Source: Limnospira fusiformis SAG 85.79 (GTDB lineage Bacteria > Cyanobacteriota > Cyanobacteriia > Cyanobacteriales > Microcoleaceae). From it: a stretch of DNA of 64,000 bases. The translations under genes were made by a program, and so were the position numbers. The notes beneath the pieces were generated by a model, which was not told the DNA's origin, did not search any database, and saw nothing but the letters and a program-made list of their open reading frames with translations. The stretch is taken from assembly GCF_012516315.1 (NCBI RefSeq), contig NZ_CP051185.1, forward strand, positions 4,221,363 to 4,285,362, written 5' to 3'. Positions 7,021 through 51,234 of this stretch are shown here, one piece after another (positions within the stretch are counted from its first letter, which is position 1; each line of letters opens with the position of its first letter).

Positions 7021-7977
7021 TATAGCAAAAGACAGAGTAGTTAGGACGTATAATAGCAAGGATATCTACAGAAGACCCAAAAGGCCAGCCCCCTACAGTT
7101 ACGACCTTAGACAAAAAGTTATCAATGCAATTGAACTATACGGTATGTCCAAAACCAAAGCCAGTCAATTTTTCCATCTCAGCCGGAACACTATCAATCT
7201 CTGGCTCCAAAGAAAAGAACACACCGGAGACTTCCTCCCTAAACCTAATCGCCCACCTGGTCATAACCACCAAATTACCGACTGGCACAAATTCAAGGCT
7301 TTTGCCCAAGAGCATGGCGATCAAACCTCCGCTCAGATGGCTCAACTTTGGGATGACGACATCTCTCCTCGCACCATATCCAGAGCCTTGAAGAAAATTG
7401 GCTTCACCAGAAAAAAAACTTACGGCTACCAAGAACGTGATGAGCAACAGCGAGAGGAGTTTATTGCTCATATTGAAAAGATGGAGCCGGAAGGGTTAGT
7501 TTACCTCGATGAAGCTGCCATGAATAGTCAAGACTCGGATTATCCTTATGGTTACTGCGAGGAAGGACAACGCTTCCATGCCCTCAAATCAGGGAAGAGG
7601 CAGGGCAGGGTGAGCTATATGGCGGCATGGTGTCATCAACAACTCTTAGCTCTCTTTACCTTTGAGGGTTGTTGTAATCGGACAGTGTTTGAGTTGTGGT
7701 TGGAGTTTATCTTAATTCCAACATTGAAGCCAGGTCAGACTCTAGTATTGGACAATGCAACGTTTCATAAAGGGGGGCGGATTGCTGAACTGGTGGAGGC
7801 AGCTCAATGCCGTTTACTCTATCTTCCGCCTTATTCGCCAGACCTCAACAAGATAGAGAAATGTTGGTCGTGGTTGAAAGCCCGCATTCGCCATTGTATT
7901 GAGCAGTTTGATTCTCTCCATGATGCCATGGATTCTGTTCTCAAGGCTGCGTCCTAACCGTATTGACTAGTGCTATA
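7021..7977 (+). mobile_element. IS630-type insertion sequence, copy A
   Basis: About 957 bp with a TA target duplication (7021-7022 and 7976-7977) and ends TATAGCA.../...TGCTATA, as in five other copies here. It interrupts the intron reverse transcriptase on its left and abuts the 208-bp array on its right. The two flanks do not belong to one another, which points to a deletion or recombination at this copy. Confidence 0.9.
7082..7957 (+). CDS. IS630 family transposase, copy A (start codon lost)
   Basis: 291 codons uninterrupted: an N-terminal helix-turn-helix ('SYDLRQKVINAIELYGMSKT'), then the DDE catalytic residues in 'YLDEAAMNSQ', 'TLVLDNATFHKGG' and 'YSPDLNKIEKCWSWLKA'. The codon that is ATG in the other copies is AGG here (7082-7084), so translation would have to begin upstream in the left end or in the intron (in-frame ATG at 6878), or not at all. 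The A8 tract after 'GFTRK' keeps the reading frame open. Confidence 0.85.
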   Translation, partial: RPAPYSYDLRQKVINAIELYGMSKTKASQFFHLSRNTINLWLQRKEHTGDFLPKPNRPPGHNHQITDWHKFKAFAQEHGDQTSAQMAQLWDDDISPRTISRALKKIGFTRKKTYGYQERDEQQREEFIAHIEKMEPEGLVYLDEAAMNSQDSDYPYGYCEEGQRFHALKSGKRQGRVSYMAAWCHQQLLALFTFEGCCNRTVFELWLEFILIPTLKPGQTLVLDNATFHKGGRIAELVEAAQCRLLYLPPYSPDLNKIEKCWSWLKARIRHCIEQFDSLHDAMDSVLKAAS

Positions 7978-10868: not shown

Positions 10869-13800
10869 ATCCATTATCAATTTAGCAAAGGAAAGCGCAT
10901 CTAAGCGATCGCCTTTTAGAGAGTATAAGCGCACGAAATCATTAACCCAGTCTAGGATAGTTTGAGTGGTGAATTGGAAAGGAGAATATTTGAGAGACCG
11001 TTGGAGATGTTCAACCGCTGCGGCTGTGTCCCCGGTGGTGTAGGCGTGCCATGCTTGCCACGTTTGCGATCGATAGCGAAGCCTGTGGCTGAGGTTTTGT
11101 ACCCCTTTTATCACCTCCTCACACTGGGCAAATTCATCGCTTATGGGGGCTGATATAGCCGGATGAAGGATGTTTATGGTTTCCCTAAGCATCCGTTCTT
11201 CCCGAAATAGTTGTTCGGCTCTCAGTTTACTCGCCTGTCCCATAGCTTGTCGGAGTTGAGGATTAACGGCCCATTCTTCGAGAGTGTGGGCGAGTTCCCG
11301 CGCCGTAGCTGCTGGGTCAACATTCGGGTTAGGTAACAGTTTCCCGGTTCCGCCTAAACCTTCAGGAATGCCACCGGCGGCGGAAGCGACAATAGGTAAA
11401 CCCTTAGCCATAGCTTCCATAATGGCGAAGGAGGGGGCGGCTTCTGAATAGGAGGTTAACACAAAGATGTCACAGGCATCTAGCCAGTCGGGAACATCCC
11501 AGCGTTGACCTAGGAAAATCACCTTTTCGGCTACCCCTAGCTGTTGTGCCATTTCCCTAAGTTCGGGTTCTACATCACGATCGCTACCTTTTCCGGTTCC
11601 CGCCCATACCAGATATAGTTTTGACCAAATCGGGGAATTTTTCAAGTGGGCGATCGCTTCTAGTTGATGACGGTGACCTTTAATTGGGGCGAGTCGGGCT
11701 GAAGTAAAGCACATTACTGCATCTTCGGGAAGGCTAATTTCCTGGCGCAACCGTTTTCGCGCTTCTGGGTCGGGGGGGTTAAAGTATTTTGGCGATCGGC
11801 CATAATAAACCACATTGCCTTTATTTTCAGGTAATTTAAAATCCTGATGGAGAATGTTTAAATGTTCCCGCGCCGCCACATTTACCACCCGCGCCAAACC
11901 ATATTGATAGCGCACAGCTTCTCGATATGGGATATCATCACCCATGGAAAAATCGGCGTGTTCACTCATGGCTAAACCTAGGGCGATCGCATAGGGAATT
12001 TTTTGTTCAATAGCCACCTGTTTAGCCGCAAAATGGGAATAGGGCCAGCCATCACTAAAGATAATAAAATCCGGCTTCAGTTGAGAATACAATTTTTCGT
12101 AATCTTGGCAATTTCTCAACACTCTAGCCAAATCTGAACTCGTACTGTAATCTAGCCAAAACTGTTGCACTCCCAAACTCCCCTCTTGTTCCACCAAAGG
12201 GCTAGTATGTTTTGGTCTAACTGCTGTGACTTGATAACCAATTTTAGCCAATTCACACATAATTAGATGATCATATTGTGCCAGTCCGCCAATACCCGGA
12301 TCATCTGTATTGATTAAAACAATGTGTTGATTCATTAAAGCCGATTTCGATAAATTTAACTGTGATTTTTGTCGGCATCTTGAACCGCCGATAAATAATG
12401 TATAAATATCTTGCCATTCTGGGCTCTTAATGAGTTGCTCAATTAACAACTTTTCTCCATACTCTTGTGAGATATTATGAGAGGCATTTGTCCAGTGTAG
12501 TAAAGTCTCCATCGGAGAAACATCACTATATTCTAAGGACTTCTGTAAACATTCTACCATCAATTGAGGGTAGCCATCTCGATACATTCTCCATGCTAAC
12601 CATATCCAGCGCTCATAGCGTTCTTTTCTTTCCAGTTGACGGATAGATATGGGTAATTCCGGGCGGCGGAAAAACTCATTCATTAAGGCTTCCGTATGGC
12701 GGATGACTTTTTCCCCTCCAGACATCAAACTACAATCATGTTGGCGGTAGCAGGCGTGCATTTTTTTCAGCCAAACGGTGCGACACCCTATTAAAGATAA
12801 CCGCAGGACAAAATCTAGGTCTTCTGTGAGGGGACGGCGATGATCAAATCCTCCCACTTTTTCCCACCATTCACGCCGCATAATTAAGGCGCTAGGACGG
12901 ACACATTTATATAAAACCCAGGTTTCTAAGTTCAAGAATGGTGCATTTTCCCAGGGTCTAACTTGGGCTAGGAATTGAGAATTTTGGTCAACCACTATCC
13001 AGCCACTTTGGATTAAATCAATGGAGGGATTTTCCTGGAAGTGGCTAACTTGTTCGGCGAGTTTTTCGGGCAAAAAAAAGTCATCCCCATCTAAAAAAGC
13101 GAGAAATTCTCCCCGCGCCAAACTACAACCATAATTTCTGGCTTTGGCAACCCCCTGGTTGGGTTGATAGTGATAGGAAATTACGTCTAAATAGGGTTCG
13201 ATAACCTGCCGGGTGTTGTCGGTGGAACCGTCATCAATTACGATAACTTCATAGTCTGTATAGGTTTGTTCCAGGGCGCTTCTGACACACAGTTCAATAT
13301 AGCGATCGCAATTATAAGCGGGAATAATTACACTAACTTTAGGGGTGGTTTTGGGGAGGGTTTCTAAGAGGAGTTGTTGCCATTCTGGTTGTTGTCTAAA
13401 GCTGTGGGTATCCATTAATTCACCGTAGCCAGTACAATAACCCATAAAGCGATGTATCCAGTCAGAAACGGTGATAGGAAGGGTGTAGGGGCTATAGGAA
13501 AGCGATCGCCTTAGAAATTCTGCCATTTTGGTCGGATGACCAGTATAATAAAATCGCCAAGCCATCCAGGTTAATGATTCATAACGGGTCTGCCTCTCTA
13601 GTTGGCGGATAGAGTCGTCCAGGTCTGGTTGTTGGAAAAAGTTTTCATGGACGGCATTAAAAGCCTCTAACTGTTTGGTAGGATCGGCAATAGACATGGC
13701 GCGATCGTGTTGGCGATAACCCACGGTCATCTGTTTTAACCAGGTAGCCTCACATCCCATTTTGGCTAGTCGCAGCACAAAGTCTACGTCGTCCGCACCG

Positions 13801-14333
13801 TCAAACCGCGAGTCAAAGCCTCCCGCCTTTTCCCACCACTCTCGCCGGAACATCATCGCACTGGGTAAAATGGGAGTATCAGTCAACCAGGTTTCTAGGG
13901 TGAGAGTTGGGACTTTATGCCAGGGTTCAATATTTGATTGGGGTGTACCGTCGGCACTAATAATTTGCCAACCACTGTTGACCAGTCCTACCCCAGGGTG
14001 AGAGTCGAAGCAGGCGACCTGGGCTGGCAATTTGTCCGGGAGGAAAATATCATCATGGTCTAATAGGGCGATTAATTCTCCCTTAGCGGCTGCTATACCG
14101 AGATTTCTGGCTGCTGCTATGCCACCATTAGTTTGGGATATACTGTAAATACGTGATCCGTAGGATTGGAGAATTTCTGGGGTGCTGTCGGTAGAGCCGT
14201 CATCGACTACAATAATTTCATAGTCCTGATAACTCTGGCTGAAAATGCTATTGATGGCTTCGGCAATGTAGCGATCGGCATTGTAAGCGGGAATGATGAC
14301 ACTGACTCTGGGTTGGCGAGTAGTTGCTGACAT
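10860..14333 (-). CDS. Multidomain glycosyltransferase: GT2-GT2-GT4 with repeated helical segments
   Basis: 1157 residues. Residues about 8-240 are a GT2 domain ('SVIIPAYNADRYI', 'IVVDDGSTD', 'LLDHDDIFLP'). A second GT2 begins near 330 ('SVIIPAYNCDRYIE', 'VIDDGSTDNT', 'FLDGDDFFLP'). A GT4 domain begins near 666 ('NTDDPGIGGLAQYD') with the C-terminal motif 'SEAAPSFAIMEAMAKGLPIV'. Each catalytic domain is followed by a related helical segment containing 'QLERQTRYESLTWMAWRFYY', 'QLERKERYERWIWLAWRMYR' or 'LRYRSQTWQAWHAYTTGD'. Such enzymes build polysaccharide or glycan chains in the cytoplasm. The stop codon and last residues (DNY) fall in the AT-rich tail of the adjacent repeat array, so the native C-terminus may have been altered. 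Confidence 0.93.
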   Translation of the reverse strand: MSATTRQPRVSVIIPAYNADRYIAEAINSIFSQSYQDYEIIVVDDGSTDSTPEILQSYGSRIYSISQTNGGIAAARNLGIAAAKGELIALLDHDDIFLPDKLPAQVACFDSHPGVGLVNSGWQIISADGTPQSNIEPWHKVPTLTLETWLTDTPILPSAMMFRREWWEKAGGFDSRFDGADDVDFVLRLAKMGCEATWLKQMTVGYRQHDRAMSIADPTKQLEAFNAVHENFFQQPDLDDSIRQLERQTRYESLTWMAWRFYYTGHPTKMAEFLRRSLSYSPYTLPITVSDWIHRFMGYCTGYGELMDTHSFRQQPEWQQLLLETLPKTTPKVSVIIPAYNCDRYIELCVRSALEQTYTDYEVIVIDDGSTDNTRQVIEPYLDVISYHYQPNQGVAKARNYGCSLARGEFLAFLDGDDFFLPEKLAEQVSHFQENPSIDLIQSGWIVVDQNSQFLAQVRPWENAPFLNLETWVLYKCVRPSALIMRREWWEKVGGFDHRRPLTEDLDFVLRLSLIGCRTVWLKKMHACYRQHDCSLMSGGEKVIRHTEALMNEFFRRPELPISIRQLERKERYERWIWLAWRMYRDGYPQLMVECLQKSLEYSDVSPMETLLHWTNASHNISQEYGEKLLIEQLIKSPEWQDIYTLFIGGSRCRQKSQLNLSKSALMNQHIVLINTDDPGIGGLAQYDHLIMCELAKIGYQVTAVRPKHTSPLVEQEGSLGVQQFWLDYSTSSDLARVLRNCQDYEKLYSQLKPDFIIFSDGWPYSHFAAKQVAIEQKIPYAIALGLAMSEHADFSMGDDIPYREAVRYQYGLARVVNVAAREHLNILHQDFKLPENKGNVVYYGRSPKYFNPPDPEARKRLRQEISLPEDAVMCFTSARLAPIKGHRHQLEAIAHLKNSPIWSKLYLVWAGTGKGSDRDVEPELREMAQQLGVAEKVIFLGQRWDVPDWLDACDIFVLTSYSEAAPSFAIMEAMAKGLPIVASAAGGIPEGLGGTGKLLPNPNVDPAATARELAHTLEEWAVNPQLRQAMGQASKLRAEQLFREERMLRETINILHPAISAPISDEFAQCEEVIKGVQNLSHRLRYRSQTWQAWHAYTTGDTAAAVEHLQRSLKYSPFQFTTQTILDWVNDFVRLYSLKGDRLDALSFAKLIMDNY

Positions 14334-14443: not shown

Positions 14444-14683
14444 ATGGGCAAAAGAACATACATTAAAGACAAAAAATTGCTCAATACTACCCTGAAAAAG
14501 GATATTAAGTGGACTCCTACTAAAATCATTCTTGCGGCTTTGGGATTTCTGATTCCTTATGGGGGTTTTGTCTATTATAGTACATCAATTTCTCTGATTT
14601 TTACCGGGTTATTGATAGCTGGGCCAGTTATGGCTGGGGCCTTTTATGGTTTCATATATTTTGTGAACCGGGATCTATTCTAA
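14444..14683 (+). CDS. Small membrane protein of unknown function (79 aa)
   Basis: ATG at 14444 with a GGAGG ribosome-binding site about ten bases upstream. The N-terminal 25 residues are basic and hydrophilic (KRTYIKDKKLLNTTLKKD). Two hydrophobic stretches follow, around residues 27-45 ('IILAALGFLIPYGGFVYY') and 49-72, so it probably spans the inner membrane twice. It lies between the divergent glycosyltransferase and the TPR cluster. No family recognised; resembles the many short cyanobacterial membrane proteins near surface-polysaccharide genes. Confidence 0.6.
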   Translation: MGKRTYIKDKKLLNTTLKKDIKWTPTKIILAALGFLIPYGGFVYYSTSISLIFTGLLIAGPVMAGAFYGFIYFVNRDLF

Positions 14684-14797
14684 GTGCCTCATCATTTAGG
14701 TGTTGAGAGTTGATGGTGGTGGGTGAGGATGGCCCATACAACGGTATAAAGTTGGTCGAGTTTGGTTAAGTAATTAGTTATTTTTGAAGATGAGTTG

Positions 14798-16594
14798 ATG
14801 TCTGTACCTAACCCGGAAGCGGAGGCTTTGAGTTTACACGAAAAGGCAGAAAACTATTTAGCCGAGGGAAAGCTGGAGAAGGCGATCGCTTTTTACCAAA
14901 AGGCGATCCAGCTAAACCCTCGTTTCTCCTGGTCTCACCATAAATTAGGGGATGCTTTCTCTCAACTGGAAAGGTGGGATGATGCTAGGTCGGCTTACCA
15001 AAAGGCGATCGCTGTTAATTCCGGCTTTTTTTGGTCTTATAATAATTTAGGAAATACTCTGATTAAACAGGGTCATTGGTCGGCAGCTATTGAAGTATAT
15101 CAAAAAGCAATTTCTCTTGATACTAATTTTCCCTGGTGTTATTATAATTTAGGTAATGCTTACAGTTATATCGGTGAATGGGAAAAGTCTATTGATGCCT
15201 ATTTAACAGCTTGTCAACTTGATGATAATTTACCAGACCTTGATGAAAAGTTGGGTGATGCTTTGGCGGGATACTGTCAGGGAAATCTTGATAATATCAT
15301 CGAACACTTAACTATTTTGCCATCCTTTCTGGATATCACAATTTATCAAAAATTAGCCGACAATTTAGCCAGAAAATATTATTGGTTAGCAGCCATTATA
15401 TTATATCAAAAAGTGTTGGCTATTGAGCCAAAAAATCCAGAGATTTTACCCAAACTTAATCAGGCTTGGGAACGCCAACGGGAACTTGAACATCAGTTAA
15501 ATATCCACAATCAGATTGTTAAACAGCATCCTGATAGTTATGATGCTTATTATCGCTTAGGCAATGCTTTATTTAAAGTGGGGAAATGGCATCAGGCTAT
15601 TGAGGCTTATTTACGGTCTATGGAATTAAATCCGAATTTACCTCCTTGGTTATATAAGGATTTGTGGACATTGATTAAAGCCGAAGGACGCTTAGGGGAA
15701 GTGGTGGATTTATATCAAAAAGCCATTGTTAAAAATCCCAAATCCTGCGAATTATATATTAATTTAGGAGAAGTTTTTGCCCAACAAGGCAACCTAAAAG
15801 CAGCGATAAATTGTAACCTTCAAGCCACAGCTATTAAGTTTAAACAGGAGTTAACCAACCCTCAATTGCCCCCTCAATTTATCATTATTGGTACTCAAAA
15901 AGGGGGGACTACTTCCCTATATTATTATCTTGAAAAACATCCACAAACTGCTTTATCTGTCATCAAAGAAATTGAGTTTTGGTCTCGGAAGTTTGACCGA
16001 GGTATAGACTGGTATTTGAGCCATTTTTGTACTATACCTAAAGCCGATAGGGTGATGACTGGGGAAGCGACACCTAGTTATTTGGACTGTCAGTCTGTAG
16101 CGGAACGTCTGTTTAACTGTTATCCTGACATGAAATTAATTGTAATGCTAAGAAATCCCATAGATAGGGCGATTTCTCATTACTATCATTGGGTTAATAT
16201 TGGTTGGGAATCGCGAGATTTATCAACAGTGATCGCCTCAGAAATAAACCGATTTAAACAGGGTAATCGTCAGATTTGGGACTGTCCCCATAGTTATTTG
16301 GCACGTGGTATATATGTGGAATTTTTGAAACATTGGTTATCTATCTTCCCCAAAGATAATTTTCTGATTCTCAAAAGCGAGGATTTATATAATAGTCCAG
16401 ACAATACTTTAAGGAGAGTACATCAGTTTTTGGGTTTAGCCGATTATTCATTACAAACATATCCCAAATACAACTCTCGATTTTATCCTGATGTGGCTGA
16501 AATATGGCGCTATAAGTTGGGAGAATTTTACCAACCTTACAATCAAGCTTTAGAGGATTTTGTGGGTGTAAAATTTGGCTGGAATAGCGGTTAA
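14798..16594 (+). CDS. TPR protein with C-terminal sulfotransferase domain (1)
   Basis: 598 residues from the ATG at 14798; a TTG directly upstream also fits. Residues about 8-345 are tetratricopeptide repeats of the 'AIAFYQKAIQLNPRFSWSHH' type. The C-terminal 240 residues are a PAPS-dependent sulfotransferase: the 5'-phosphosulfate loop 'IIGTQKGGTTSLYYY' near residue 363, 'GEATPSYLD', and the 3'-phosphate motif 'RNPIDRAISHYYH' near 450. By family it would transfer sulfate from PAPS to a sugar or protein hydroxyl, with the TPR part holding partners or substrate. It is first in a run of five same-strand TPR-enzyme genes with short gaps, probably co-transcribed. Many KAIA codons in the repeats are HIP1 sites. 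Confidence 0.9.
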   Translation: MSVPNPEAEALSLHEKAENYLAEGKLEKAIAFYQKAIQLNPRFSWSHHKLGDAFSQLERWDDARSAYQKAIAVNSGFFWSYNNLGNTLIKQGHWSAAIEVYQKAISLDTNFPWCYYNLGNAYSYIGEWEKSIDAYLTACQLDDNLPDLDEKLGDALAGYCQGNLDNIIEHLTILPSFLDITIYQKLADNLARKYYWLAAIILYQKVLAIEPKNPEILPKLNQAWERQRELEHQLNIHNQIVKQHPDSYDAYYRLGNALFKVGKWHQAIEAYLRSMELNPNLPPWLYKDLWTLIKAEGRLGEVVDLYQKAIVKNPKSCELYINLGEVFAQQGNLKAAINCNLQATAIKFKQELTNPQLPPQFIIIGTQKGGTTSLYYYLEKHPQTALSVIKEIEFWSRKFDRGIDWYLSHFCTIPKADRVMTGEATPSYLDCQSVAERLFNCYPDMKLIVMLRNPIDRAISHYYHWVNIGWESRDLSTVIASEINRFKQGNRQIWDCPHSYLARGIYVEFLKHWLSIFPKDNFLILKSEDLYNSPDNTLRRVHQFLGLADYSLQTYPKYNSRFYPDVAEIWRYKLGEFYQPYNQALEDFVGVKFGWNSG

Positions 16595-16671
16595 TGGCTG
16601 AGTTTTAATCAATGTAAATAATTGGCAAGATTAGTATATAATTAGGGTGAGTATAGGGGTGAGTGAATAAT

Positions 16672-19335
16672 ATGGAGCGTGATTTTCAACTTCCGGGGGA
16701 ATTAGTGAGTCTTCATCAACAGGCGATCGCCTATTTAGAAGAAGGGAAATTTGATGAGGCGATCGCTAACTGTCAACAAGTTATCCAACAGCAGCCCGAA
16801 TGGGTTATGGCTTATAAAACTTTGGGGTTGGCTTTACAAAAAAGTAACCGCCTAGAAGCAGCAGAAAACGCCTATAAAAAAGCTATCAATCTCGACTCTG
16901 ATTTCGTGGCTGCTTATGGAAATCTTGGCAGTCTTTACGCGCAACAGGGAAGGTGGGAAGAAGCGGAAGCAACGTTAAAGCAAGCCATCAGTATTGACCC
17001 TAATTTTCGGGGATTATATCGCAATTTAGCCAGAGTTTTAACCAAGATAGGACGACCGGAAGAAGCTCAAAGCTATTGGCAAAAGGGACTGAAATTAGAT
17101 GCAATTTTAAAACAGCGAGGACAAGAGGAATTACAGATAGGAAATACCTTAGCTGAAGCCGGGAAATGGTCAGAGGCGGTGTCAGCATTTCAAAAGGCGA
17201 TCGCTTACCATCCTCAGTTATTTTTAGCGCACCATAAATTGGGGTTAGGTCTGATGCAATTAAATCAGCCAGCCGAGGCGGTGTCGGCTTTTGAGAAGGC
17301 GATCGCTATCCAACCAGATTTTAGTTGGTCTCATCACCATTTAGGAGAGGCTTTTCAGGTGTTAAATAAACCGGCTTTGGCGGTAGAGGCATTTCGGAAG
17401 GCGATCGCTATCAACCCAGATTTTTGTTGGTCTTATTATCAATTAGCCAAAGCTGCCACCCAACTCCAGCAGTGGGAAGATGTAGCATATGCTTACCAAA
17501 AAGCCATTCAATTAAAGTCAGACTTTCTGGAGTTTTATTTAGGCTTATCTAAGGCATTATTTGAGTTAAAACGCTGGCAAGATTTGGTGAAATTATACCC
17601 CTCCATTTTATCACAACAGCCTGATTTGATCAAAAACTATTATTCCCTGGCAGAAACTTTAGTTGAGCAGGAATGTTGGGATGCTGCTTTAGTGATTTAC
17701 GAGGCCATCATTGAACAAAACCCAAGTTTTTTAGAATCTCCTAATAATAGAGTTAATTGGGGTAAAATTTTAGTCAGCCAAAAACGTTATGAACAGGCGA
17801 TATCTCAGTATCAAATTCTAGTTAATCAAAATCCTAATTGCGAATATTTTTATGGATTACTAGCAGATGCTTATTATCAAAATAAAGACTGGTTAACCGC
17901 CTTAGAAAATTATCAAAAAGCGATATCTATAAATAGTAATCAGGACTGGTTTTATTGCTGCTTGGGGAATTGCTTACACCAATTAGGTAATTTTGACCAA
18001 GCAATTGAGGCTTATAGAAAGGCTATTACCATCAAAAATTATCCTTGGTATTATGAAGAAATTATTAATGTATTGATGTCTCAGGAAAAGTGGGAAGATG
18101 CGCTGGAATTCTGTTTTGAGTCACTTAAAAATGACCCCAACTATTATCAATTTTACGACAAAATAAAGACAAACTTACTACACTTAGGAAGACATCAAGA
18201 TGCTCAAAGATGCAATCATTTACAATTACCTCATGATCTGCTTTCTAAATTCTGTAATTTACCAAGTCCAGACAAGTGGTTAGTCAATAGTAGAAGTTGT
18301 AGCAATGTTCAAACTATCGAGATATATCCATCGACTTCCGTGAATTTTAAACAGCCAACTACAGTTTCCAAGAGTTCTTTGGGTTTCACAAGTCATCGAA
18401 CCCAGCAACCATCCGGATCAGTGAAAATTTTTCCACAAGCTAGAGGCTTAAATACTGGTCCGTTAAATTTGTTAAACACAATAATAACAGCCAATAATCA
18501 GGTTGTTCAAGATTTATCTTCCGACAACTCAGGAATTGCTTTAGCTGCTCATAATTTACCAGAGACCATACACTTAGAAGGAAATATTGCTTTTGTATCT
18601 GCTCATTATGGACACAACTACTTTCATTGGATGGTCGAGGTAATACCTAGGTTACATCTGGTTTTAGCCAGCGGAGTACCCGTTGATAAAATTGTGGTTA
18701 ATAAGTTTGGTCACAAATATGAGGATGAAACTTTAGCTATGTTTGACATTCCCGAACATCAAAAAATGTTTGGCTGTTTTCGTCACGTTCAAGCTGAGGT
18801 TTTGATAGTCCCATCTCGCACCTTTTTTATACCAAAATGGGCTGGTTATTTTGTCAAAAATTTAGTTTTAAAACATCCATTACTGGAAGAGGATAATCGA
18901 TGCAATTACTCTAGTAAAATTTATATTAGTAGAGCTAATGCTTATATTCGCAAAGTTATCAATGAACAGGAGTTAATGGATATCCTAAAACCATTAGGTT
19001 TTGAAGTGGTCTATCTTGAAAATATGTCGGTGAAACAACAAGCATTGTGTTTACATCATGCGGAAGTTGTAATTTCTCCTCATGGTGCTGGGTTAACTAA
19101 CTTAGTTTTCTGTGAACCTGGAACTAAAGTAATTGAGTTATTTCCTCCCGCAGACTGGACCGTTACATGTTACTGGACTATGAGCGAAATTTGTGAATTA
19201 GATTATTATTACTTAGTGGGCGAATTTAATCCAGAATTACCCAAGGAAATAGGTAATGAGATCGATAGAAATCAAAATTTTTATATAGATATAAACAGTT
19301 TATTAAAAACTATGGAAATTGCTGATATAATTTAA
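16672..19335 (+). CDS. TPR protein with C-terminal GT61-like (DUF563) glycosyltransferase
   Basis: About 887 residues from the ATG at 16672; a GTG three codons earlier (16663) is too close to the AGGGG ribosome-binding site. Residues about 10-510 are TPR units. A linker leads into a GT61/DUF563 domain from about residue 600: 'ALAAHNLPETIHLEG', 'HYGHNYFHWMVEVIPRL', 'KIYISRANAYIRKVINEQEL' and the family signature 'HGAGLTNLVFCEPGTKVIEL' near 803. GT61 members transfer xylose, GlcNAc or related sugars; the acceptor here is unknown. The first three TPR units closely resemble those of the three following genes, indicating duplication with exchange of the catalytic module. Confidence 0.88.
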   Translation: MERDFQLPGELVSLHQQAIAYLEEGKFDEAIANCQQVIQQQPEWVMAYKTLGLALQKSNRLEAAENAYKKAINLDSDFVAAYGNLGSLYAQQGRWEEAEATLKQAISIDPNFRGLYRNLARVLTKIGRPEEAQSYWQKGLKLDAILKQRGQEELQIGNTLAEAGKWSEAVSAFQKAIAYHPQLFLAHHKLGLGLMQLNQPAEAVSAFEKAIAIQPDFSWSHHHLGEAFQVLNKPALAVEAFRKAIAINPDFCWSYYQLAKAATQLQQWEDVAYAYQKAIQLKSDFLEFYLGLSKALFELKRWQDLVKLYPSILSQQPDLIKNYYSLAETLVEQECWDAALVIYEAIIEQNPSFLESPNNRVNWGKILVSQKRYEQAISQYQILVNQNPNCEYFYGLLADAYYQNKDWLTALENYQKAISINSNQDWFYCCLGNCLHQLGNFDQAIEAYRKAITIKNYPWYYEEIINVLMSQEKWEDALEFCFESLKNDPNYYQFYDKIKTNLLHLGRHQDAQRCNHLQLPHDLLSKFCNLPSPDKWLVNSRSCSNVQTIEIYPSTSVNFKQPTTVSKSSLGFTSHRTQQPSGSVKIFPQARGLNTGPLNLLNTIITANNQVVQDLSSDNSGIALAAHNLPETIHLEGNIAFVSAHYGHNYFHWMVEVIPRLHLVLASGVPVDKIVVNKFGHKYEDETLAMFDIPEHQKMFGCFRHVQAEVLIVPSRTFFIPKWAGYFVKNLVLKHPLLEEDNRCNYSSKIYISRANAYIRKVINEQELMDILKPLGFEVVYLENMSVKQQALCLHHAEVVISPHGAGLTNLVFCEPGTKVIELFPPADWTVTCYWTMSEICELDYYYLVGEFNPELPKEIGNEIDRNQNFYIDINSLLKTMEIADII

Positions 19336-19362
19336 TTAGTTGTTTGAGTGAAAAAATTGCCG

Positions 19363-21393
19363 ATGAGTTTATCGATGAATACCCCAGACCGTGCCGTTAT
19401 ATACCATAAACAAGCAATTGAACATCTCAAAGAAGGTAAATTAGAGGAAGCGATCGCCTGCTGTAATTTCGCCTTGGAAAGACAACCATATTGGCCAGAT
19501 GGTTATAAAACTTTGGGACTGGCTTACCAGAAGCAAGGTAACTTTGAGCAAGCCTTAATTGCCTATACAAAAGCATTAGAAATTAAACCAGATTTTGCTG
19601 AAGTTTACGGCAATTTGGGAAGTCTGTATGCCGAACATAAATTGTGGCAAGATGCAGTGCAAGCCTATGATGTCGCTTTGCGTCTTAATCCTGATTTGGT
19701 GGGGTTATATCGTAACCTGGCTCAATTATTAATTATGTTTGGAAAATATGAAGATGCTATCAGTTATTGTCAGCAAGCGATCGCTAAACAACCCGACTCA
19801 TTTAAAGCCTATTATTTATTGGGAAATGCACTGAGTGGCTTAGAAAAATGGTCAGCAGCAGAAACGGCTTATCAGCGTGGTGCTGAACTTAATCCTCAAT
19901 GCGATCGCATTCATGTAGACCTAGGGAATATGTTGGCTCAACAGGGAAATTGGCAACCCGCGATCGCTGCCTATCAAACAGCTATTAAAATTAACCCCAA
20001 AAATGAACTCGCTTATCATAAATTAGGAAATTCTTGGTTTCGCTTACAGGAACCAGAAAAAGCGATTTCTGTTTATAAAAAAGCCATGGAAATTAACCCA
20101 CTAACTCCTTGGTCTCATCTCCCATTAGGGCGATCTTTGTTAGAGGTTGGTAAAGTTCAAGAAGCGATCGCTATTTGTTTTCGAGCAGTTGAATTAAACC
20201 CTAACTCCTACTGGGCTTATGAAAATTTGGGGGATGCTTTAAGCAGAAACCGACGTTTTTCCCAAGCCATTCCTATATATTTACAAGCCTTACAAAAAGT
20301 TCCTGAAGACAGGCCGGGAGTTAGTAAGAGTTTATATCGTCAATTGGGTTATGCGATCCGGGAACAGAGTCAAGCAGATGTAGATAAGGCTAGTCAGTGG
20401 TTATCGGAAATGATTAATCATCCACCGGATCACAATTGGCAAAAATTGGGTTTGACCAAACAAAACCCGGAACCCTATTTACAATTAGGAGAAATGTTAG
20501 CTAAAAATTATCAGTTTGAAGGAGCGATCGCCTTTCATAAACTCGCCTGTGAATGTCAACCTAAGAACGCTGAAATCCTGGAAAAATATCAGAATATTTG
20601 TCAGCAATACCAAGAGTTTGAGGAAAAAATTAGCTCCCTACAACTTGCCACCCAAGAAGACTCTACCTCCCCTAAACCTTATACAGAACTGGGTAATTTA
20701 TTATCTGAACATAACCGCCTAGATGAAGCTGCTAGTTATCACCGCACCGCCTTAAAACTCCGAGGATGGGATGTTAGCGAACAACGTAATTATCGATTTA
20801 CCCGAGACTGGTTTAGTAGTAATATCCCCACCTGGGAAAAAAATTTACATCATCTGGCGGGTATTCCCGGCTTTCAAGCCTTAGAAGTTGGCAGTTTTCA
20901 GGGGATGTCAGCCTGTTGGCTGCTTGATTATATCCTGACTCATCCGACTGCGACAATTACTTGTATTGACCCATATTTTCAACCGGAATTTAATAGCAAT
21001 ATTGCTCAAACTAATGCAGGCGATCGCGTGATTAAAATAGTCGGATATTCTCAAAATATTCTGAATTCTCTGGCGGCTGATTACTATGACCTAATTTATA
21101 TTGATGGTTGTCATTTGGCGACGGTAGCCTTCCGAGATGCTTTGCTCTCATGGCGACTTTTAAAGGTGGGAGGAATGGCGATTTTTGATGATTATAATGT
21201 TTCCGAAGAAGATGACCAAGAACAAGAAGCTAAACGGGGAATTAATCTATTTTTAGAAAAGGTGAAAGATTGGGTGGATATTATAGATGAGGGGTATCAA
21301 TTATTTTTAGTGAAAACCGGAGATGGTTTCCAGCCTGGTGAATTGGAAATGTTGTTATCAGAAATTGATGGACCATTACAAGCCTATTATTAA
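19363..21393 (+). CDS. TPR protein with C-terminal class I SAM methyltransferase
   Basis: About 676 residues. Start candidates are a GTG at 19348 and ATGs at 19363 and 19375; none has a clear ribosome-binding site. TPR units cover residues about 10-470. The C-terminus is a Methyltransf_24-type domain: SAM motif I 'LEVGSFQGMSACWLL' near residue 506, 'ITCIDPYF', then 'DLIYIDGCHLATVAFRDALL' and 'LKVGGMAIFDDYNVS'. Related domains O-methylate sugars in glycan clusters. It lies 27 bases after the GT61-like gene, and its stop is just before the next start, consistent with an operon. The DxH/DD residues suggest metal-assisted O-methylation (inference). Confidence 0.87.
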   Translation: MSLSMNTPDRAVIYHKQAIEHLKEGKLEEAIACCNFALERQPYWPDGYKTLGLAYQKQGNFEQALIAYTKALEIKPDFAEVYGNLGSLYAEHKLWQDAVQAYDVALRLNPDLVGLYRNLAQLLIMFGKYEDAISYCQQAIAKQPDSFKAYYLLGNALSGLEKWSAAETAYQRGAELNPQCDRIHVDLGNMLAQQGNWQPAIAAYQTAIKINPKNELAYHKLGNSWFRLQEPEKAISVYKKAMEINPLTPWSHLPLGRSLLEVGKVQEAIAICFRAVELNPNSYWAYENLGDALSRNRRFSQAIPIYLQALQKVPEDRPGVSKSLYRQLGYAIREQSQADVDKASQWLSEMINHPPDHNWQKLGLTKQNPEPYLQLGEMLAKNYQFEGAIAFHKLACECQPKNAEILEKYQNICQQYQEFEEKISSLQLATQEDSTSPKPYTELGNLLSEHNRLDEAASYHRTALKLRGWDVSEQRNYRFTRDWFSSNIPTWEKNLHHLAGIPGFQALEVGSFQGMSACWLLDYILTHPTATITCIDPYFQPEFNSNIAQTNAGDRVIKIVGYSQNILNSLAADYYDLIYIDGCHLATVAFRDALLSWRLLKVGGMAIFDDYNVSEEDDQEQEAKRGINLFLEKVKDWVDIIDEGYQLFLVKTGDGFQPGELEMLLSEIDGPLQAYY

Positions 21394-21409
21394 TCTCACT
21401 AAATTATTT

Positions 21410-23236
21410 ATGGTATCTCTACCTCCGAAATTGTTAGCATTACAACTTCACCAGCAAGCTATTATGTACATTAATAATCGCGACTGGGAGTCGGCTATCC
21501 AAGCTGGTGAACAAGCCTTAAAACTCTACCCTGATTTAGCGATCGCCTGTAAAACTTTGGGGATAGCTTGGCAATGCAAAGGAGAGTTAACTGAGGCGGA
21601 AAAATGGTATAAACAAGCCTTAACAATTAAACCAAATTTTGCTGAAGTTTACTCTAATTTAGGTAGTTTATATGCGAAACAAAGCCAGTGGCAACCTGCT
21701 ATTACAGCCTATAAAACTGCCCTAAAAATTAACCCTAATTTAGCCGGAGCTTATCGAAATTTGGCGAAAGTATGGACTGAGTTAGAGGATACCGATAATT
21801 TTATGAAATGTCAATATAAAGCTCTGCAATTAGAACCGGAGAAAGGGAGTGCTGATGATTATATAAAGTTAGGAAATCTGTTCCTAAAGTGCCGCCAATT
21901 TACTAAGGCGATCGCCTGTTATCGGCAAGCCATTAAATTATATCCTGATACCTCTGAAGCCTATCATAACTTAGGGGAAGTTTTGAAGGCATTAAAAAGA
22001 CCGAAACAGGCAATTTTGTCTTATCAAAAAGCTCTGAAAGTTAATCCCCAGTCTACCATGACCTATCGTAGCTTAGAAAAAATCTTAATTGAGCATCACC
22101 AATGGGACGAACTCATTAAAGTTTATTATCAACATTTAACCGTAGATTATAATTGCTTTGAAACCTATCGCAATTTGGGTAAAATTTTACTGCAAAAAGG
22201 TCAAATTCAAGATGCTATGAATGCCTTTCTTAAAGCCATTGAAATTAAACCTGATTTTTCTTGGTCTTATTGGAACTTATGGAATATTTTAGCTGAATAT
22301 GAACAGCTAGACCAAGCCCGGGAAATTTTAGTAGCAGCCATTGACCGTTTTTCTGATTCTGAACAAGTGAAATTGAATTTGGGGGAACTTCTCAGCCATC
22401 AAAACAAGTTCCCGGAGGCTATGGTAGCATATCGGGATGCTGCTGCTCAAAAAATGCGGCGATCGCATCCTGAAATTATGGCGAAATCTGGAGATAAATC
22501 GTCTCCTATCCCACCTAATTTTATCATTATTGGCGCTCAAAAAGGTGGCACTACATCTCTGTATCGTTATTTAGAAGAACATCCTCAAATTGTAGGTTGT
22601 ATCAAAAAAGAAACTCATTTTTGGGATAAGCATTTCGACAGAGGTTTAGATTGGTACTTATCCCACTTTCCTCCCAGTCTTGTCGAGCCTAATATTATCA
22701 CTGGGGAAGCCACGCCAAATTATTTGGAATCCGCCAAAGTTCCTGAGCGTATATTTGAGGTATTTCCTGATATCAAATTAATTTTCTTACTGCGTAATCC
22801 CATCACGCGAGCCATATCTCAATATCACCATTGGGTAAGATTAATGCGCGAATATAGACCCTTAGAAATAGTGATGAAATCGGAGTTAAACCTAATTACA
22901 AGTAATTTAGAATCGGAGAGGAAACTAAGTCAATATCCCGGATATCTCTGGCGAGGATTATATCTACCATTTCTGGAAAAATGGATGTCGATTTTTCCCA
23001 GGGAACAGTTTTTAATTATCCGCAGTGAAGATTTTTATCAAAATCCGTCCCAAGTTTTTAATCGGGTTTTGGATTTTTTGGGATTACCTAGCTATGAACT
23101 ATCTAACTATTGTTCCTATAACTCAGGACGTTATCCCCAAATCGAACCTTCAGTTTATAGTCAACTCCGAGATTACTTTTATCCTCATAATCAAAGATTA
23201 CAGGATTTTTTAAATTTAGAGTTTGATTGGGATTAA
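21410..23236 (+). CDS. TPR protein with C-terminal sulfotransferase domain (2)
   Basis: 608 residues from the ATG at 21410. A longer frame opens at 21323, but that overlaps the previous gene, and the residues before MVSLPPKLL do not resemble the paralogs. TPR units span residues about 8-350. The sulfotransferase follows with 'IIGAQKGGTTSLYRYLEEHP' near 371, 'KKETHFWDKHFDRGLDWYLS', 'GEATPNYLE' and 'RNPITRAISQYHHW'. It is the closest relative in the window of the next gene and of the gene at 14798. Predicted to sulfate a surface glycan or glycoprotein; substrate unknown. Confidence 0.9.
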   Translation: MVSLPPKLLALQLHQQAIMYINNRDWESAIQAGEQALKLYPDLAIACKTLGIAWQCKGELTEAEKWYKQALTIKPNFAEVYSNLGSLYAKQSQWQPAITAYKTALKINPNLAGAYRNLAKVWTELEDTDNFMKCQYKALQLEPEKGSADDYIKLGNLFLKCRQFTKAIACYRQAIKLYPDTSEAYHNLGEVLKALKRPKQAILSYQKALKVNPQSTMTYRSLEKILIEHHQWDELIKVYYQHLTVDYNCFETYRNLGKILLQKGQIQDAMNAFLKAIEIKPDFSWSYWNLWNILAEYEQLDQAREILVAAIDRFSDSEQVKLNLGELLSHQNKFPEAMVAYRDAAAQKMRRSHPEIMAKSGDKSSPIPPNFIIIGAQKGGTTSLYRYLEEHPQIVGCIKKETHFWDKHFDRGLDWYLSHFPPSLVEPNIITGEATPNYLESAKVPERIFEVFPDIKLIFLLRNPITRAISQYHHWVRLMREYRPLEIVMKSELNLITSNLESERKLSQYPGYLWRGLYLPFLEKWMSIFPREQFLIIRSEDFYQNPSQVFNRVLDFLGLPSYELSNYCSYNSGRYPQIEPSVYSQLRDYFYPHNQRLQDFLNLEFDWD

Positions 23237-23343
23237 ATTAATGATGGACAATGATTGACATTTGGCAATTTTTGTGCTATATATATTAGCCATCAGTGGA
23301 TGTTTTCAGCATCCTAGAAGTTTGAAAAAGATTTAAATTGATA

Positions 23344-25488
23344 ATGCCATCCTCCGAAGAAATACTAGCATTACAGCTATATCAGCAGGCTAACACATAT
23401 CTAGCCCAACAGCAATTTTCTGAGGCGATCGCTTCCTGTAAAACTGCCTTAGAATATCATCCTAACTTGGCTCCAGCATACAAAATTATCGGCACTGTTG
23501 AACAGCTACAAGGGGAGTTTGATCAGGCGGAAGCATCCTATAAAAAAGCCTTAGAAATCGAGCCAAATTTTGCCGAAGTTTACGCGAATCTTGGCAGCCT
23601 TTTTGCTCAAAAAAATGATTGGCAATCTGCGATTAACTGCTATGAAAAGGCTATCGAAATTAAACCGGATTTTGGCGGTGTTTATCGCAACTTAGCCAAA
23701 GTATTTGGGCAAATTAATCAGCAGGATAAAGCCAACTACTGTTGGTTAAAAGCTATCAATATTGAACCACAAAATGTTAACCTTCCTGAATATCTGGAGG
23801 TTGCCAAAGCACTGGATAATCAGGGAAAATTTCCCCAAGCGATCGCCATTTATGCTAAGGCGATGGCAATTTATCCAAACGTGGCAGAAATTTCCTATAA
23901 TTTAGGGGAAACTTTCGTCAATTGTGAACAATGGGAATCAGCGATAAACGCCTATAAACAGGCTCTGGAAATTGACCCAGATTTGTATTATGTCTATAGT
24001 CGTTTGGGGGATGTTTTCACAGAACAGAAAAATTACCAGGATGCGATCGCCGCCTATCAAGAATGCCTTAAACTGAAGCCAGACATAGATTGGATAAATT
24101 TGAAGCTGGGGGAAATCTGCCAAAAACAAGGAGATATAAAACAAGCGATCGCCGCCTATCAAAAAGGCATAACTATCCAACCAAAATTAACATGGCCTTA
24201 CTTAAAACTCTTAGAACTTTTGAACCACCTCGAATCATGGCAGGAAATTTTTAGTAACTATAAAGAACTCCTAAATAACCATCCAGATAAATCGGCGATA
24301 ATTCACCAAAAACTAGCCGAGGCAGCCGTAAGATTCAAGAAATGGAATCAGGCGATTAAAAATTTCCAAAAAGCCCTAGAAATCGACCCAGAATGCTTTG
24401 ATGCTTGTCTGCAATTAGCCCAGATATTTCTGCGCCAAGGAAAACCAATTAAGGCTATAGAAGCCTATATCAAAGCCGTAAATATTCGGCCTCATTTTTA
24501 TTGGTCATATTGGAATCTGTGGAATTTATTATCCGAACACAATCAACTTGATATCGTCATTGAAATCTATCGCCAGAAACTCCAAGACTTTGCTGATTTT
24601 CATGTAGTTTCTATGAACCTGGGAGAGGCTTTAAGTCGTCAAGGAAATATCCAAGAAGCCATCACCCATTATCGAAATGCCAGCCACAAAAAACTGTTAA
24701 AAAATCGCCCAGAAATTGCTAGTCAATATTGGGACAATAACCATCCCATGCACCCGAATTTTTTAATTATTGGCACTCAAAAAGGCGGGACTACTTCCCT
24801 GTACAACTATTTAAGTAAACATCCGCAAGTATTACCCTGCATCAAAAAAGAAGTTTACTTTTGGGCTATGCTGTTTTATCGAGGTTTAGACTGGTATCTT
24901 TCCCATTTTCCCCACCTAGCGACCTCAGCAGAATTTATCACGGGAGAAGCCACCCCTCACTATTTAGAGATCCCAGAAGTTCCCCGCCGCGTCTGGGAAG
25001 TATTTCCGCGCATGAAACTGATTGTGTTATTGAGAAATCCGATAATCAGGAGTTTTTCACATTATTATCATTGGCAGAGATTAATGTGGGAAAAGAGGTC
25101 TTGGAAAGAGGCTTTTACCACGGAATTAGAAATCATGTCTAACCTAGATCATATCGAATTTAATTCTCCCGGCTTACAAGGTGAAAAGAAATACCTAGCC
25201 AGAGGCATATATATCAATTTTCTGGAAAATTGGATGTCAGTATTTCCCCGGGAGCAGTTTTTGATTATTCGTAGCGAAGACTTTTACGAACATCCCCAAG
25301 CCATTTTCAATCAGGTCTTAGAATTTTTGGAACTCTCCCCCCACCAACTCCATAAATATCACCCCTTCAACGCTGGAGAATATGAAGTCGATCGCCAAGA
25401 TCCAGTTTTCCAGCAACTCCGGGAATTCTTCCGACCCCATAATCAGAAACTAGAGGAATTTTTAGGACGACAATTAAATTGGCATTGA
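23344..25488 (+). CDS. TPR protein with C-terminal sulfotransferase domain (3)
   Basis: 714 residues from the ATG at 23344; a TTG six bases earlier is also in frame. This is the longest of the three sulfotransferase paralogs because of extra TPR units (about residues 8-455). Catalytic motifs are 'IIGTQKGGTTSLYNYLSKHP' near 474, 'KKEVYFWAMLFYRGLDWYLS', 'GEATPHYLE' and 'RNPIIRSFSHYYHW'. It ends the run of five TPR-enzyme genes; a 63-base gap separates it from the kinase-like gene. Confidence 0.9.
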   Translation: MPSSEEILALQLYQQANTYLAQQQFSEAIASCKTALEYHPNLAPAYKIIGTVEQLQGEFDQAEASYKKALEIEPNFAEVYANLGSLFAQKNDWQSAINCYEKAIEIKPDFGGVYRNLAKVFGQINQQDKANYCWLKAINIEPQNVNLPEYLEVAKALDNQGKFPQAIAIYAKAMAIYPNVAEISYNLGETFVNCEQWESAINAYKQALEIDPDLYYVYSRLGDVFTEQKNYQDAIAAYQECLKLKPDIDWINLKLGEICQKQGDIKQAIAAYQKGITIQPKLTWPYLKLLELLNHLESWQEIFSNYKELLNNHPDKSAIIHQKLAEAAVRFKKWNQAIKNFQKALEIDPECFDACLQLAQIFLRQGKPIKAIEAYIKAVNIRPHFYWSYWNLWNLLSEHNQLDIVIEIYRQKLQDFADFHVVSMNLGEALSRQGNIQEAITHYRNASHKKLLKNRPEIASQYWDNNHPMHPNFLIIGTQKGGTTSLYNYLSKHPQVLPCIKKEVYFWAMLFYRGLDWYLSHFPHLATSAEFITGEATPHYLEIPEVPRRVWEVFPRMKLIVLLRNPIIRSFSHYYHWQRLMWEKRSWKEAFTTELEIMSNLDHIEFNSPGLQGEKKYLARGIYINFLENWMSVFPREQFLIIRSEDFYEHPQAIFNQVLEFLELSPHQLHKYHPFNAGEYEVDRQDPVFQQLREFFRPHNQKLEEFLGRQLNWH

Positions 25489-25550: not shown

Positions 25551-27656
25551 ATGCGGTTGCAGCGCCAGTTTAATGGAAAAATCATCACCCTCGACACCAG
25601 AAACCCCATTGGGAGTGGTGGTGAGGGTCGCATCTACGTTGTTGCCAACGACCCCACCCTAGTAGCCAAAATCTACCATAACCCGACGGACGAAGACGCA
25701 GACAAACTAACCCTAATGTACAACGCCCCCCCTGCCAATTTAGACGTAATGCCGGGGATGACCTTAATAGCTTGGCCGATCGACCTGTTGCGGACTGTCG
25801 ATAACCGCCCCCACATTGTTGGGTATCTAATGCCGCGAGTCACGGCGGCTGCACCCATCCACACATTTTACACCCCCAAAACCCGCCGGGAACAGAAACC
25901 CCTATTTAACTATCTCTACCTACACCGTACTGCGCGCAACCTAGCTGCCGCTTTTAACGATATTCACAGCGGAGGCTATGTAGTAGGAGATGTCAACGAA
26001 TCCAATATTTTAGTCAGCGATACCGCCATTGTCACCCTAGTAGATACAGACTCCTTCCAAGTGCGCGACCCCTATACTGACCTGACGTTTCGCTGTCCGG
26101 TAGGAAAAGCGGAATTTACGCCGCCAGAATTGCAAAATCAGACTTTCCGAGATATCGATCGCACAGCAGAACACGATCGCTTTGGTTTAGCAGTGCTGAT
26201 ATTTCAACTACTAATGGAAGGAACACACCCCTTTTCTGGGGTATATCAAGGCAGTGGCGACCCCCCAGCCATAGAAGCGCGGATCAAAGCCGGTCATTTC
26301 GTCTATGGGAAAAAACCAGTCCCCTACCAACCGATGCCCTTAGCCCCCTCCTTCAAAACCCTTCACCCCAGCCTACAGGAACTATTTATCCGCTGTTTTG
26401 AAGACGGCCACAACTACCCCGAAAAACGCCCCCCAGCCATAGCTTGGACACAGGCGCTCAAGCAAGCAGAATCCGACCTAACCACCTGTACTAAGAATCG
26501 ACAACACCGATACAGTAACCATCTCAAATCCTGTCCTTGGTGCGATCGCACCCGCCAACTAGGAGGACGCGATCCCTTTCCGTCCCGAGAGGCTGTGCGT
26601 TCCGGTCAACACCTAGAACCACTAAAAATCAAAAAGCGCCATCGTCTCACCCTCAACCCTAGAGTTACCCGTCCCCAACAACCATCGCGAGTCATCACCC
26701 CCACCACCAAAAGCCCCAGACGGGTCCTCAAACGTCCCCAACCTCCCGCCATTATCAGATCACCGCGCACATGGTTAGCAATTTGGCATATTACCGAAGG
26801 CGCAATAGTTGGGGGTGTTTGGGGAGTTACCTGTTTATCAGCGATCGTCGCCATAATTTTCGCCCTCTTTGGACCCACCAGCGGCATACTCGGAGCCATG
26901 ATCGTCGGTAGCATTTGGGGCTGTTTTTTCGGTGCCACCGCCGGGTTATTCATACCCGAACCCATTACCGGACCTAGCAAAATCCCCGTCATCATTGGTG
27001 GTCTATGTGGAACCTTCATCGCCGCCGCCATAGCTGGAGTCGTTTTCGGCGCTTTAGAACAAGATGCCCTCATTGGTCAGGCGATTATGTGGGGCGCGTT
27101 TATGGGTATGGTGTGGGGTACCATCTGGAACCTCTTTAAACCCCCTCTATCGGTTCCCAAGGGCCGTGTACACGGTAAAAATGGCATGATTCTAGGTGCT
27201 ATATGGGGAGCCTTTTTGGGTACAGCCATCGGTAGTCTTTTAGGAGCGATCGCCGTCCTCGCCATGGAATTAGACCAGCCTGGTAACTCCACCCCAGAGA
27301 TCATCTCTCGCATTTGTGTCACAGCCATTGTCGCCGCCGGATTGGGTGCGTTGGGGGGGATTCTATCTGGTGCTACCTTTGGCACCATTGGCGGCGCACC
27401 ACCCCTCCCCACTGCTATACGACTAGCCGGACGACGGGGAGCGTGGGTGGGTATGGTTTGGGGTAATTTCCTGGGAGTTATTACCGGCGCTTTTTTAGGA
27501 GCGATCGCATCTACCCTATTTCCTCAATTGCTGCAAACCAGCCCCCCAGACAACAGCATCCCCCTATTGTTAGGAGCCATTATCGTTTCCGCAGGGATTG
27601 GTTCAGCCTGGGGCATATTTTCCGGCATGATTTGGGGAGGACTCGGTAAATTTTGA
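25551..27656 (+). CDS. Kinase-like protein (COG4248 type) with zinc ribbon and glycine-rich membrane domain
   Basis: 701 residues. The N-terminal 300 residues look like a divergent Ser/Thr kinase: glycine loop 'GSGGEGRIYV' near 21, 'LVAKIYHN' with the ATP lysine near 40, a catalytic-loop equivalent 'VVGDVNESNILV' near 143, and 'VDTDSFQV' in place of DFG. A short zinc-ribbon-like 'SCPWCDR' follows near 327, then a basic linker, then from about 420 a run of hydrophobic, glycine- and tryptophan-rich segments ('GGVWGVTCLSAIVAIIFALF', 'GAIWGAFLGTAIGSLLGAIA') suggesting six or more membrane spans of glycine-zipper type. Kinase activity is plausible because the lysine and two aspartates are present. 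Its target is unknown. Codon GC content is a little higher than in the TPR genes. Confidence 0.75.
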   Translation: MRLQRQFNGKIITLDTRNPIGSGGEGRIYVVANDPTLVAKIYHNPTDEDADKLTLMYNAPPANLDVMPGMTLIAWPIDLLRTVDNRPHIVGYLMPRVTAAAPIHTFYTPKTRREQKPLFNYLYLHRTARNLAAAFNDIHSGGYVVGDVNESNILVSDTAIVTLVDTDSFQVRDPYTDLTFRCPVGKAEFTPPELQNQTFRDIDRTAEHDRFGLAVLIFQLLMEGTHPFSGVYQGSGDPPAIEARIKAGHFVYGKKPVPYQPMPLAPSFKTLHPSLQELFIRCFEDGHNYPEKRPPAIAWTQALKQAESDLTTCTKNRQHRYSNHLKSCPWCDRTRQLGGRDPFPSREAVRSGQHLEPLKIKKRHRLTLNPRVTRPQQPSRVITPTTKSPRRVLKRPQPPAIIRSPRTWLAIWHITEGAIVGGVWGVTCLSAIVAIIFALFGPTSGILGAMIVGSIWGCFFGATAGLFIPEPITGPSKIPVIIGGLCGTFIAAAIAGVVFGALEQDALIGQAIMWGAFMGMVWGTIWNLFKPPLSVPKGRVHGKNGMILGAIWGAFLGTAIGSLLGAIAVLAMELDQPGNSTPEIISRICVTAIVAAGLGALGGILSGATFGTIGGAPPLPTAIRLAGRRGAWVGMVWGNFLGVITGAFLGAIASTLFPQLLQTSPPDNSIPLLLGAIIVSAGIGSAWGIFSGMIWGGLGKF

Positions 27657-51213: not shown

Positions 51214-51234
51214 CCGACTCTTAGCAGTACGGCT

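Follow-up and report, generated by a model that had tools for sequence, protein, structure and literature searches.

This analysis concerns five consecutive genes, numbered p1 to p5 in order, within a 64,000-nucleotide stretch of the 6.42-Mb, single-contig genome of Limnospira fusiformis SAG 85.79 (the stretch as a whole is called the window, and coordinates without a prefix are positions in it). Each gene encodes a protein in which tetratricopeptide repeats (TPR) are followed by a C-terminal transferase module and, to judge from the available sequences, the cluster looks like one arm, in its Arthrospira form, of a TPR-transferase cassette that is conserved in cyanobacteria and whose recurrent partner is an RTX calcium-binding protein. 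The mechanism we favor, at somewhat less than an even chance, is that cytosolic, TPR-guided enzymes attach a glycan bearing sulfate and methyl groups to an RTX surface protein that is still unfolded and awaiting export.

The cluster and its counterparts in other cyanobacteria

As stated in the preliminary description, all five genes are located on the forward strand with small gaps, about 12 to 101 bp between successive open reading frames (ORFs), and they differ in their C-termini. The modules named there agree with Pfam matches above cut-off, which identify Sulfotransfer_1/3 sulfotransferases (ST) in p1 (14795..16594; PF00685/PF13469, module at about 15851-16585), p4 (21410..23236, the ORF opening at 21323 with 21410 as the likely start; module 22493-23233) and p5 (23338..25488; module 24733-25485), a Glyco_transf_61 glycosyltransferase (GT61) in p2 (16663..19335; PF04577, module at about 18283-19332) and a Methyltransf_24 methyltransferase (MT24) in p3 (19348..21393; PF13578, module at about 20782-21390). 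From p1 to p5, the proteins contain 8, 13, 11, 9 and 12 detected TPRs. The identical gene order is found in Arthrospira sp. PCC 9108 at 88-90% identity, and this strain provides the best named match to p2 (88%, full protein covered) as well as a p4 orthologue (L031:14741-16564) that is broken by an in-frame stop codon.

Elsewhere, the cassette, as it is defined in this analysis, consists of genes for an RTX calcium-binding protein, a TPR-GT61a, a TPR-MT24 that is often fused to GT61b, and then a TPR-ST or TPR-GT2, with GT61a denoting the RTX-linked type of GT61 and GT61b the MT24-fused or standalone type. The window cluster has a TPR-MT24 of this family together with adjoining TPR-GT61b and TPR-ST genes. 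Of the 61 genomes of the family Microcoleaceae, 46 carry an MT24 module of the p3 type (E<=1e-40), and these represent 6 of 11 genera; in the class sample, 52 of 388 genomes do so (E<=1e-45). In 31 of 33 primary stretches from two genera, g10 and g11, possibly Microcoleus and relatives, one TPR protein combines MT24 with a second GT61; these fusion proteins, 1209-1374 aa where complete, are usually preceded by a TPR-GT61 and followed by a TPR-ST. Among the class loci, the run RTX, TPR-GT61, TPR-MT24 occurs in 9 of 20, most of which continue with a TPR protein of 1.1-1.8 thousand residues, and all three of these long proteins that were scanned (L222, L226 and L236) contain GT2 domains, with one also containing a group-1 domain. 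In addition, the set of GT61b, MT24 and an ST resembling heparan sulfate 3-O-sulfotransferases (HS3ST) recurs on TPR carriers of other genera. This recurrent association and the MT24-GT61 fusions both bear out the earlier notion of a TPR scaffold with swapped catalytic modules. The GT61 tree separates off, with support of 100/99, a group of 18 rows made up of p2, its PCC 9108 copy, the MT-fused forms and several of the standalone forms, and all 18 RTX-linked forms, including one from this genome (L079:8096), lie outside this group.

RTX genes were recognized as ORFs encoding at least three GG.G.D motifs (PF00353 for one scanned protein) and were counted as directly upstream when on the same strand within 1.5 kb, the observed gaps being 22-952 bp. 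An RTX gene is found directly upstream of TPR-GT61 in 24 of 33 cases in the family, in 9 of 9 in the class and in 9 of 10 in a blind set of TPR-GT61 loci found without regard to RTX, with genes cut by contig ends omitted (6 in the family, 1 in the blind set) and with the class and blind sets sharing genomes; the exception in the blind set is PCC 9108. Counted per locus, 11 of the 20 loci from the class and, with the window among them, 25 of the 56 stretches from the family contain an RTX ORF, versus 1 of 15 control regions, one of which is just 4.4 kb long and which remain from 20 sought after five contigs proved too short. The sole positive control region, L253, holds three RTX ORFs. Across 14 family genomes, mostly picked for an MT24/ST cluster without RTX, at least 12, this genome and PCC 9108 among them, have an RTX gene upstream of GT61a. 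By locus, this arrangement applies to at least 14 of the 27 strong GT61a loci (E<=1e-110) in these genomes, based upon a comparison of 27 GT61a matches with 25 of 125 RTX matches, in which absences are not firm.

L. fusiformis itself has a single match to the RTX-tail profile at E<=1e-7, as does PCC 9108. It is a 376-aa protein encoded at C1:1514774-1515904 (L079:6775-7905), just upstream of the GT61a gene L079:8096 at C1:1517577, and this RTX-GT61a unit at C1:1.515 Mb is 2.7 Mb from the window cluster. Since the same unit is joined to the other modules in other genera, the window cluster would represent one arm of what looks, from gene content and phylogeny, like a two-part system with arms that are joined elsewhere. 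Among 16 transferase loci of this genome (ST, GT61 and MT24 matches, some without TPR), at least 5 have an RTX gene no more than 5 kb away versus a mean of 0.88 for shifted positions (p 0.003), with the RTX genes taken from 150 of 231 PF00353 candidates; these five do not include the window cluster. RTX was also considered as a neighbor of the lone TPR-MT24 of genus g3 and rejected, as it occurs in 1 of 6 stretches and on the opposite strand, with none in L103-L106. As a separate observation, the 530-aa protein encoded at L111:6927-8519 carries an ST of the same family but no detected TPR, and an RTX gene lies about 4 kb away.

The shared N-terminal block and the catalytic modules

Four of the five proteins had been described as sharing a closely related N-terminal block, and the comparison of TPR windows upholds this. 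The N blocks of p2 (16687..17112), p3 (19372..19797), p4 (21428..21847) and p5 (23356..23787), all on the forward strand, are 39-47% identical in register and their six pairs score 246-326, compared to a mean of 121 (sd 41) for the other between-protein TPR windows of 136 aa (n=793). Only 2 of the 6 pairs score above every other window pair (maximum 298); of the six top other pairs listed, five come from shifted windows that overlap the respective pair's own N block, and the sixth, p4/p5 with a score of 270, comes from the distal end of the TPR region. The N block of p1 yields lower scores of 153-222 against p2-p5, aligns better out of register with three of these four, and ranks 14th among the own-genome matches to a p2-p5 profile. 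The p2-p5 N blocks are related beyond generic TPR similarity. The motifs previously given for them, AYKTLG and VY.NLGSLYA, hold in outline, with p4 reading ACKTLG and p5 reading AYKIIG and NLGSLFA.

This N block is not private to the cluster. The best further own-genome match to the p2-p5 profile is an unlinked 752-aa TPR-GT61 protein (181 bits), and in leave-one-out profiles the unlinked own-genome TPR-GT61 N block beats the left-out member in 4 of 4 tests. Separate phylogenies of the N blocks and C-termini, as had been suggested, were run as trees, many forks of the N-block tree being weak or open. p4 and p5 stay together in both, as sisters in the ST tree (99/95) and within a 21-row N-block clade (94/96) whose members carry ST, GT61, MT24 or MT24-GT61. 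The p1 ST module pairs instead with an ST of G004, another genus (98/96), and the p3 N block joins carriers of G004 and G006 (97/91), while that of p2 is unplaced. p4 and p5 are the sole pair that look like a tandem duplication.

The best PDB matches to the p3 model (mean pLDDT 83.8) are TPR proteins of the O-GlcNAc transferase (OGT)/SPINDLY type, with target TM scores of 0.75 versus 1w3b and 0.83 versus 6eou. Designed consensus TPR superhelices match the p3 model as well (9qhb, 0.90), and the OGT-type match of this predicted structure is a test of fold, not of family. The p5 model exhibits a weaker match of the OGT/SPINDLY type (0.41-0.44) and is poor in its catalytic part (pLDDT mostly below 60 at residues 450-540), so we make no claim regarding the active-site geometry of a TPR-ST.

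The ST module of p4 is related to the heparan sulfate 3-O-sulfotransferases (1t8t, E 1.9e-31). A loop of the G-(K/R)-x-G-T-x-S type, an RNP motif and a putative catalytic Glu are found in 25 of 25 aligned ST modules, with a Lys preceding this Glu in 24 of 25; the loop for 3'-phosphoadenosine 5'-phosphosulfate (PAPS), the RNP motif and the Glu presumably have their usual roles. STs of the p4/p5 type carry the sequence marks of an HS3ST-like PAPS sulfotransferase and may act on glycans. The GT61 module of p2 matches PF04577 with 101.3 bits (cut-off 27), and its profile is closest to those of POMGNT2 and EOGT (E about 1e-7), in agreement with a single-sequence search. Solved structures were set aside as a guide to the substrate of the p3 methyltransferase, as they gave weak matches to general O-methyltransferases alone. 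None of p1-p5 has a membrane segment predicted by hydropathy (maximum KD19 1.27). Elsewhere in this genome, a 610-aa protein at C1:1530240 (L080:4959-6791) has its ST match toward the N-terminus and its detected TPRs at the C-terminus, the reverse of the usual order.

RTX protein or polysaccharide as a possible acceptor

Conservation of the RTX neighbor suggests that the TPR enzymes decorate a calcium-binding, probably secreted protein. PAPS, S-adenosylmethionine and nucleotide sugars are cytosolic donors and, with no hydrophobic membrane segment in p1-p5, these enzymes would presumably act in the cytosol, in which case modification should precede export. RTX repeats fold upon calcium, which is scarce in the cytosol, so an unfolded RTX chain would be a natural client of the TPR groove. 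In the mechanism we favor, the TPR superhelix would hold the RTX protein in the cytosol, where calcium is low and the protein unfolded, GT61a and GT2 enzymes would begin and lengthen a glycan upon it, and GT61b, MT24 and the STs would further lengthen, methylate and sulfate this RTX-borne glycan. The glycoprotein would then exit, probably via type I secretion, fold on Ca2+ and become part of a sulfated surface or gliding layer. A possible acceptor region is marked by an NPTxP motif close to the N-terminus in 27 of 28 family RTX proteins, and likewise in the Arthrospira one. A more ambitious formulation, in which a family of OGT-like TPR transferases assembles a heparan-like glycan with sulfate and O-methyl groups on RTX proteins that are still unfolded and not yet exported, the finished glycoprotein being folded by calcium at the surface of filamentous cyanobacteria, strikes us as doubtful.

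Several observations weigh against an RTX acceptor. An RTX ORF is missing from 9 of 20 class MT24 loci and from 31 of 56 family stretches (some of them short), and 13 of the 27 strong GT61a loci have no upstream RTX gene among the matches compared, G006 and G070 having none. ST-family genes stand without an MT24 neighbor in many class genomes, and MT24 is near ST in only 4 of 20 class genomes outside the family that have both matches. The window cluster itself lacks an RTX gene directly upstream of a TPR-GT61a, and no listed RTX gene lies within 91 kb of it (150 of 231 PF00353 candidates scored). Asn at TPR position 6 forms the ladder of OGT, and here it is not enriched (0.38 of 28 TPRs versus 0.53 of 129 in other TPR ORFs of this genome); an OGT-type ladder was consequently rejected as a sign of peptide binding. 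Moreover, synteny is an association, and does not identify RTX as the acceptor.

The strongest competing explanation, to which we give about one third of the weight, is that the cluster serves to sulfate and methylate a polysaccharide of the sheath or outside the cell, for example calcium spirulan, with the TPRs merely assembling the enzymes. In the portion of PMC11395459 consulted, spirulan contains 3-O-methyl- and 2,3-di-O-methyl-rhamnose, 3-O-methylxylose and sulfate, which matches a combination of ST, methyltransferase and GT; it is because this chemistry fits ST plus methyltransferase equally well that the explanation retains such weight. Likewise, cyanobacterial ST genes are mostly reported from extracellular polysaccharide clusters (PMC8205485, in part), a further point against an RTX acceptor. 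The ST modules are nearest to glycan sulfotransferases, a GT2-GT2-GT4 gene adjoins the cluster, and a gene of the GDP-mannose-dehydratase type is found near the G004 version. On the other hand, the eight proteins scanned between 10860 and 28980 include no polymerase, flippase or ABC export domain, and MT24 is also kept in the RTX operon of other genera and families, from which we know of no spirulan. The sulfated, methylated polysaccharide proposed in the preliminary description is possible, but with RTX as the recurrent partner and no Wzx/Wzy or ABC export domain in these eight proteins, it is not the best supported target. Rather improbable, in our estimation, is an arrangement in which the RTX protein and the transferases serve one surface layer non-covalently, with RTX binding or ordering the sulfated glycan of the TPR enzymes via Ca2+. 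It would yield the identical RTX/TPR-transferase synteny, and spirulan sulfate chelates Ca2+ (PMC11395459, in part), but the TPR carriers and the EOGT/POMGNT2-like GT61 hint, weakly, at a polypeptide acceptor.

Two further explanations concern the cluster as a whole. Duplication of one TPR block in place, with exchange of catalytic modules to create a private scaffolded machine, would account for the p2-p5 N-block similarity, the p4/p5 duplication and the mixed N-block clade, but the leave-one-out scores and trees group the modules, and most of the N blocks, with relatives outside the cluster. We consider it very unlikely and largely refuted as an origin within the cluster, and local birth of p2-p5 is rejected with the exception of p4/p5; what survives of the proposed duplication with module exchange is module mixing at depth and this one pair. 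Least probable of all is a loose array of paralogous TPR-transferases with unrelated substrates, which is compatible with the TPR-transferases at several other loci of this genome, but at odds with the recurrent clusters and the MT24-GT61 fusions.

When compared to known systems, the cluster shares with OGT and SPINDLY, which head the structural matches to both the p3 and the p5 model, a long N-terminal TPR superhelix followed by a C-terminal transferase, but their catalytic domain is GT41, where the cluster has ST, MT24 and GT61 and no enriched Asn ladder. Due to this lack of GT41, the cluster, by its domain content, resembles OGT in architecture, yet is not OGT. EOGT and POMGNT2, whose acceptors are proteins or glycoproteins, are related to the cluster GT61 at the profile level, just as the heparan sulfate 3-O-sulfotransferases share the PAPS loop and Glu region with the cluster STs, whereas the cluster enzymes of both kinds are bacterial and TPR-fused. 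The synechan xss locus of Synechocystis similarly combines sulfotransferases with glycosyltransferases, but also has Wzx/Wzy/PCP and regulators (PMC8205485, in part), while the cluster has TPR fusions and a methyltransferase, and no xss-type Wzx/Wzy/PCP or ABC export genes were recognized among the eight proteins scanned. Perhaps the nearest precedent for the proposed product, by analogy, is oscillin, an RTX protein that reportedly favors gliding and has a highly glycosylated fibril surface (PMC3034196, in part). Oscillin and the other cyanobacterial RTX motility proteins in the same source are calcium-binding RTX surface proteins like those of the cassette, a likeness drawn from description, the cassette proteins being mostly about 260-390 aa versus 646 in oscillin. 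In our searches of the open-licence literature, we found no description of TPR-sulfotransferase or RTX/TPR-transferase operons, nor of spirulan genes, the consulted parts of PMC8205485 and PMC11395459 included.

Surrounding features and implications

Divergent from the cluster, on the reverse strand, is the Pfam-assigned GT2-GT2-GT4 glycosyltransferase gene (10860..14333), relatives of which are also divergently encoded beside TPR-transferase clusters in G004 (61% over 99%), G007 and G018 (45-47% over about half). Between it and p1, a short frame read by eye (14444..14683, +) may encode a small membrane protein. Downstream, 62 bp past p5, an ORF with a weak kinase match below cut-off (25551..27656, +) is followed by a GT4-type glycosyltransferase gene (27748..28980, +; Pfam), and both are kept in PCC 9108. 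Predicted promoter-like sites number 48 versus 35.7 expected, and terminator-like sites 20 versus 13.9. Next to the GT2-GT2-GT4 gene, 7976-10869 is taken up by a tandem array of a 208-bp unit in about 14 copies that are 99% alike, and a second tandem array at 59109-60827 (213/433-bp period, 96-98% alike) partly shares this unit by eye. Nine group II intron matches (RF00029) are located at 45372-57995 and 4948-5174, seven of them within about 13 kb on both strands, and the intron-rich stretch exhibits strong AT skew and few long ORFs. At 5956-7957, what we take to be a group II intron maturase-like ORF, apparently truncated, is overlapped by a presumably transposase-like ORF, and a match to NsiR1, the nitrogen stress-induced RNA, is found at 4106-4163 on the reverse strand (44.3 bits, cut-off 39).

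If the mechanism that we favor is correct, a small RTX protein would become a substrate candidate, accompanied by an enzyme set for the sulfation of surface glycoproteins in filamentous cyanobacteria, among them spirulina, which is used as food. The mechanism would thereby tie together surface proteins that bind calcium, sulfated glycans and either gliding or sheath formation, and the family would be a bacterial counterpart of OGT whose TPR helices bear four other kinds of transferase (ST, MT24, GT61 and GT2).

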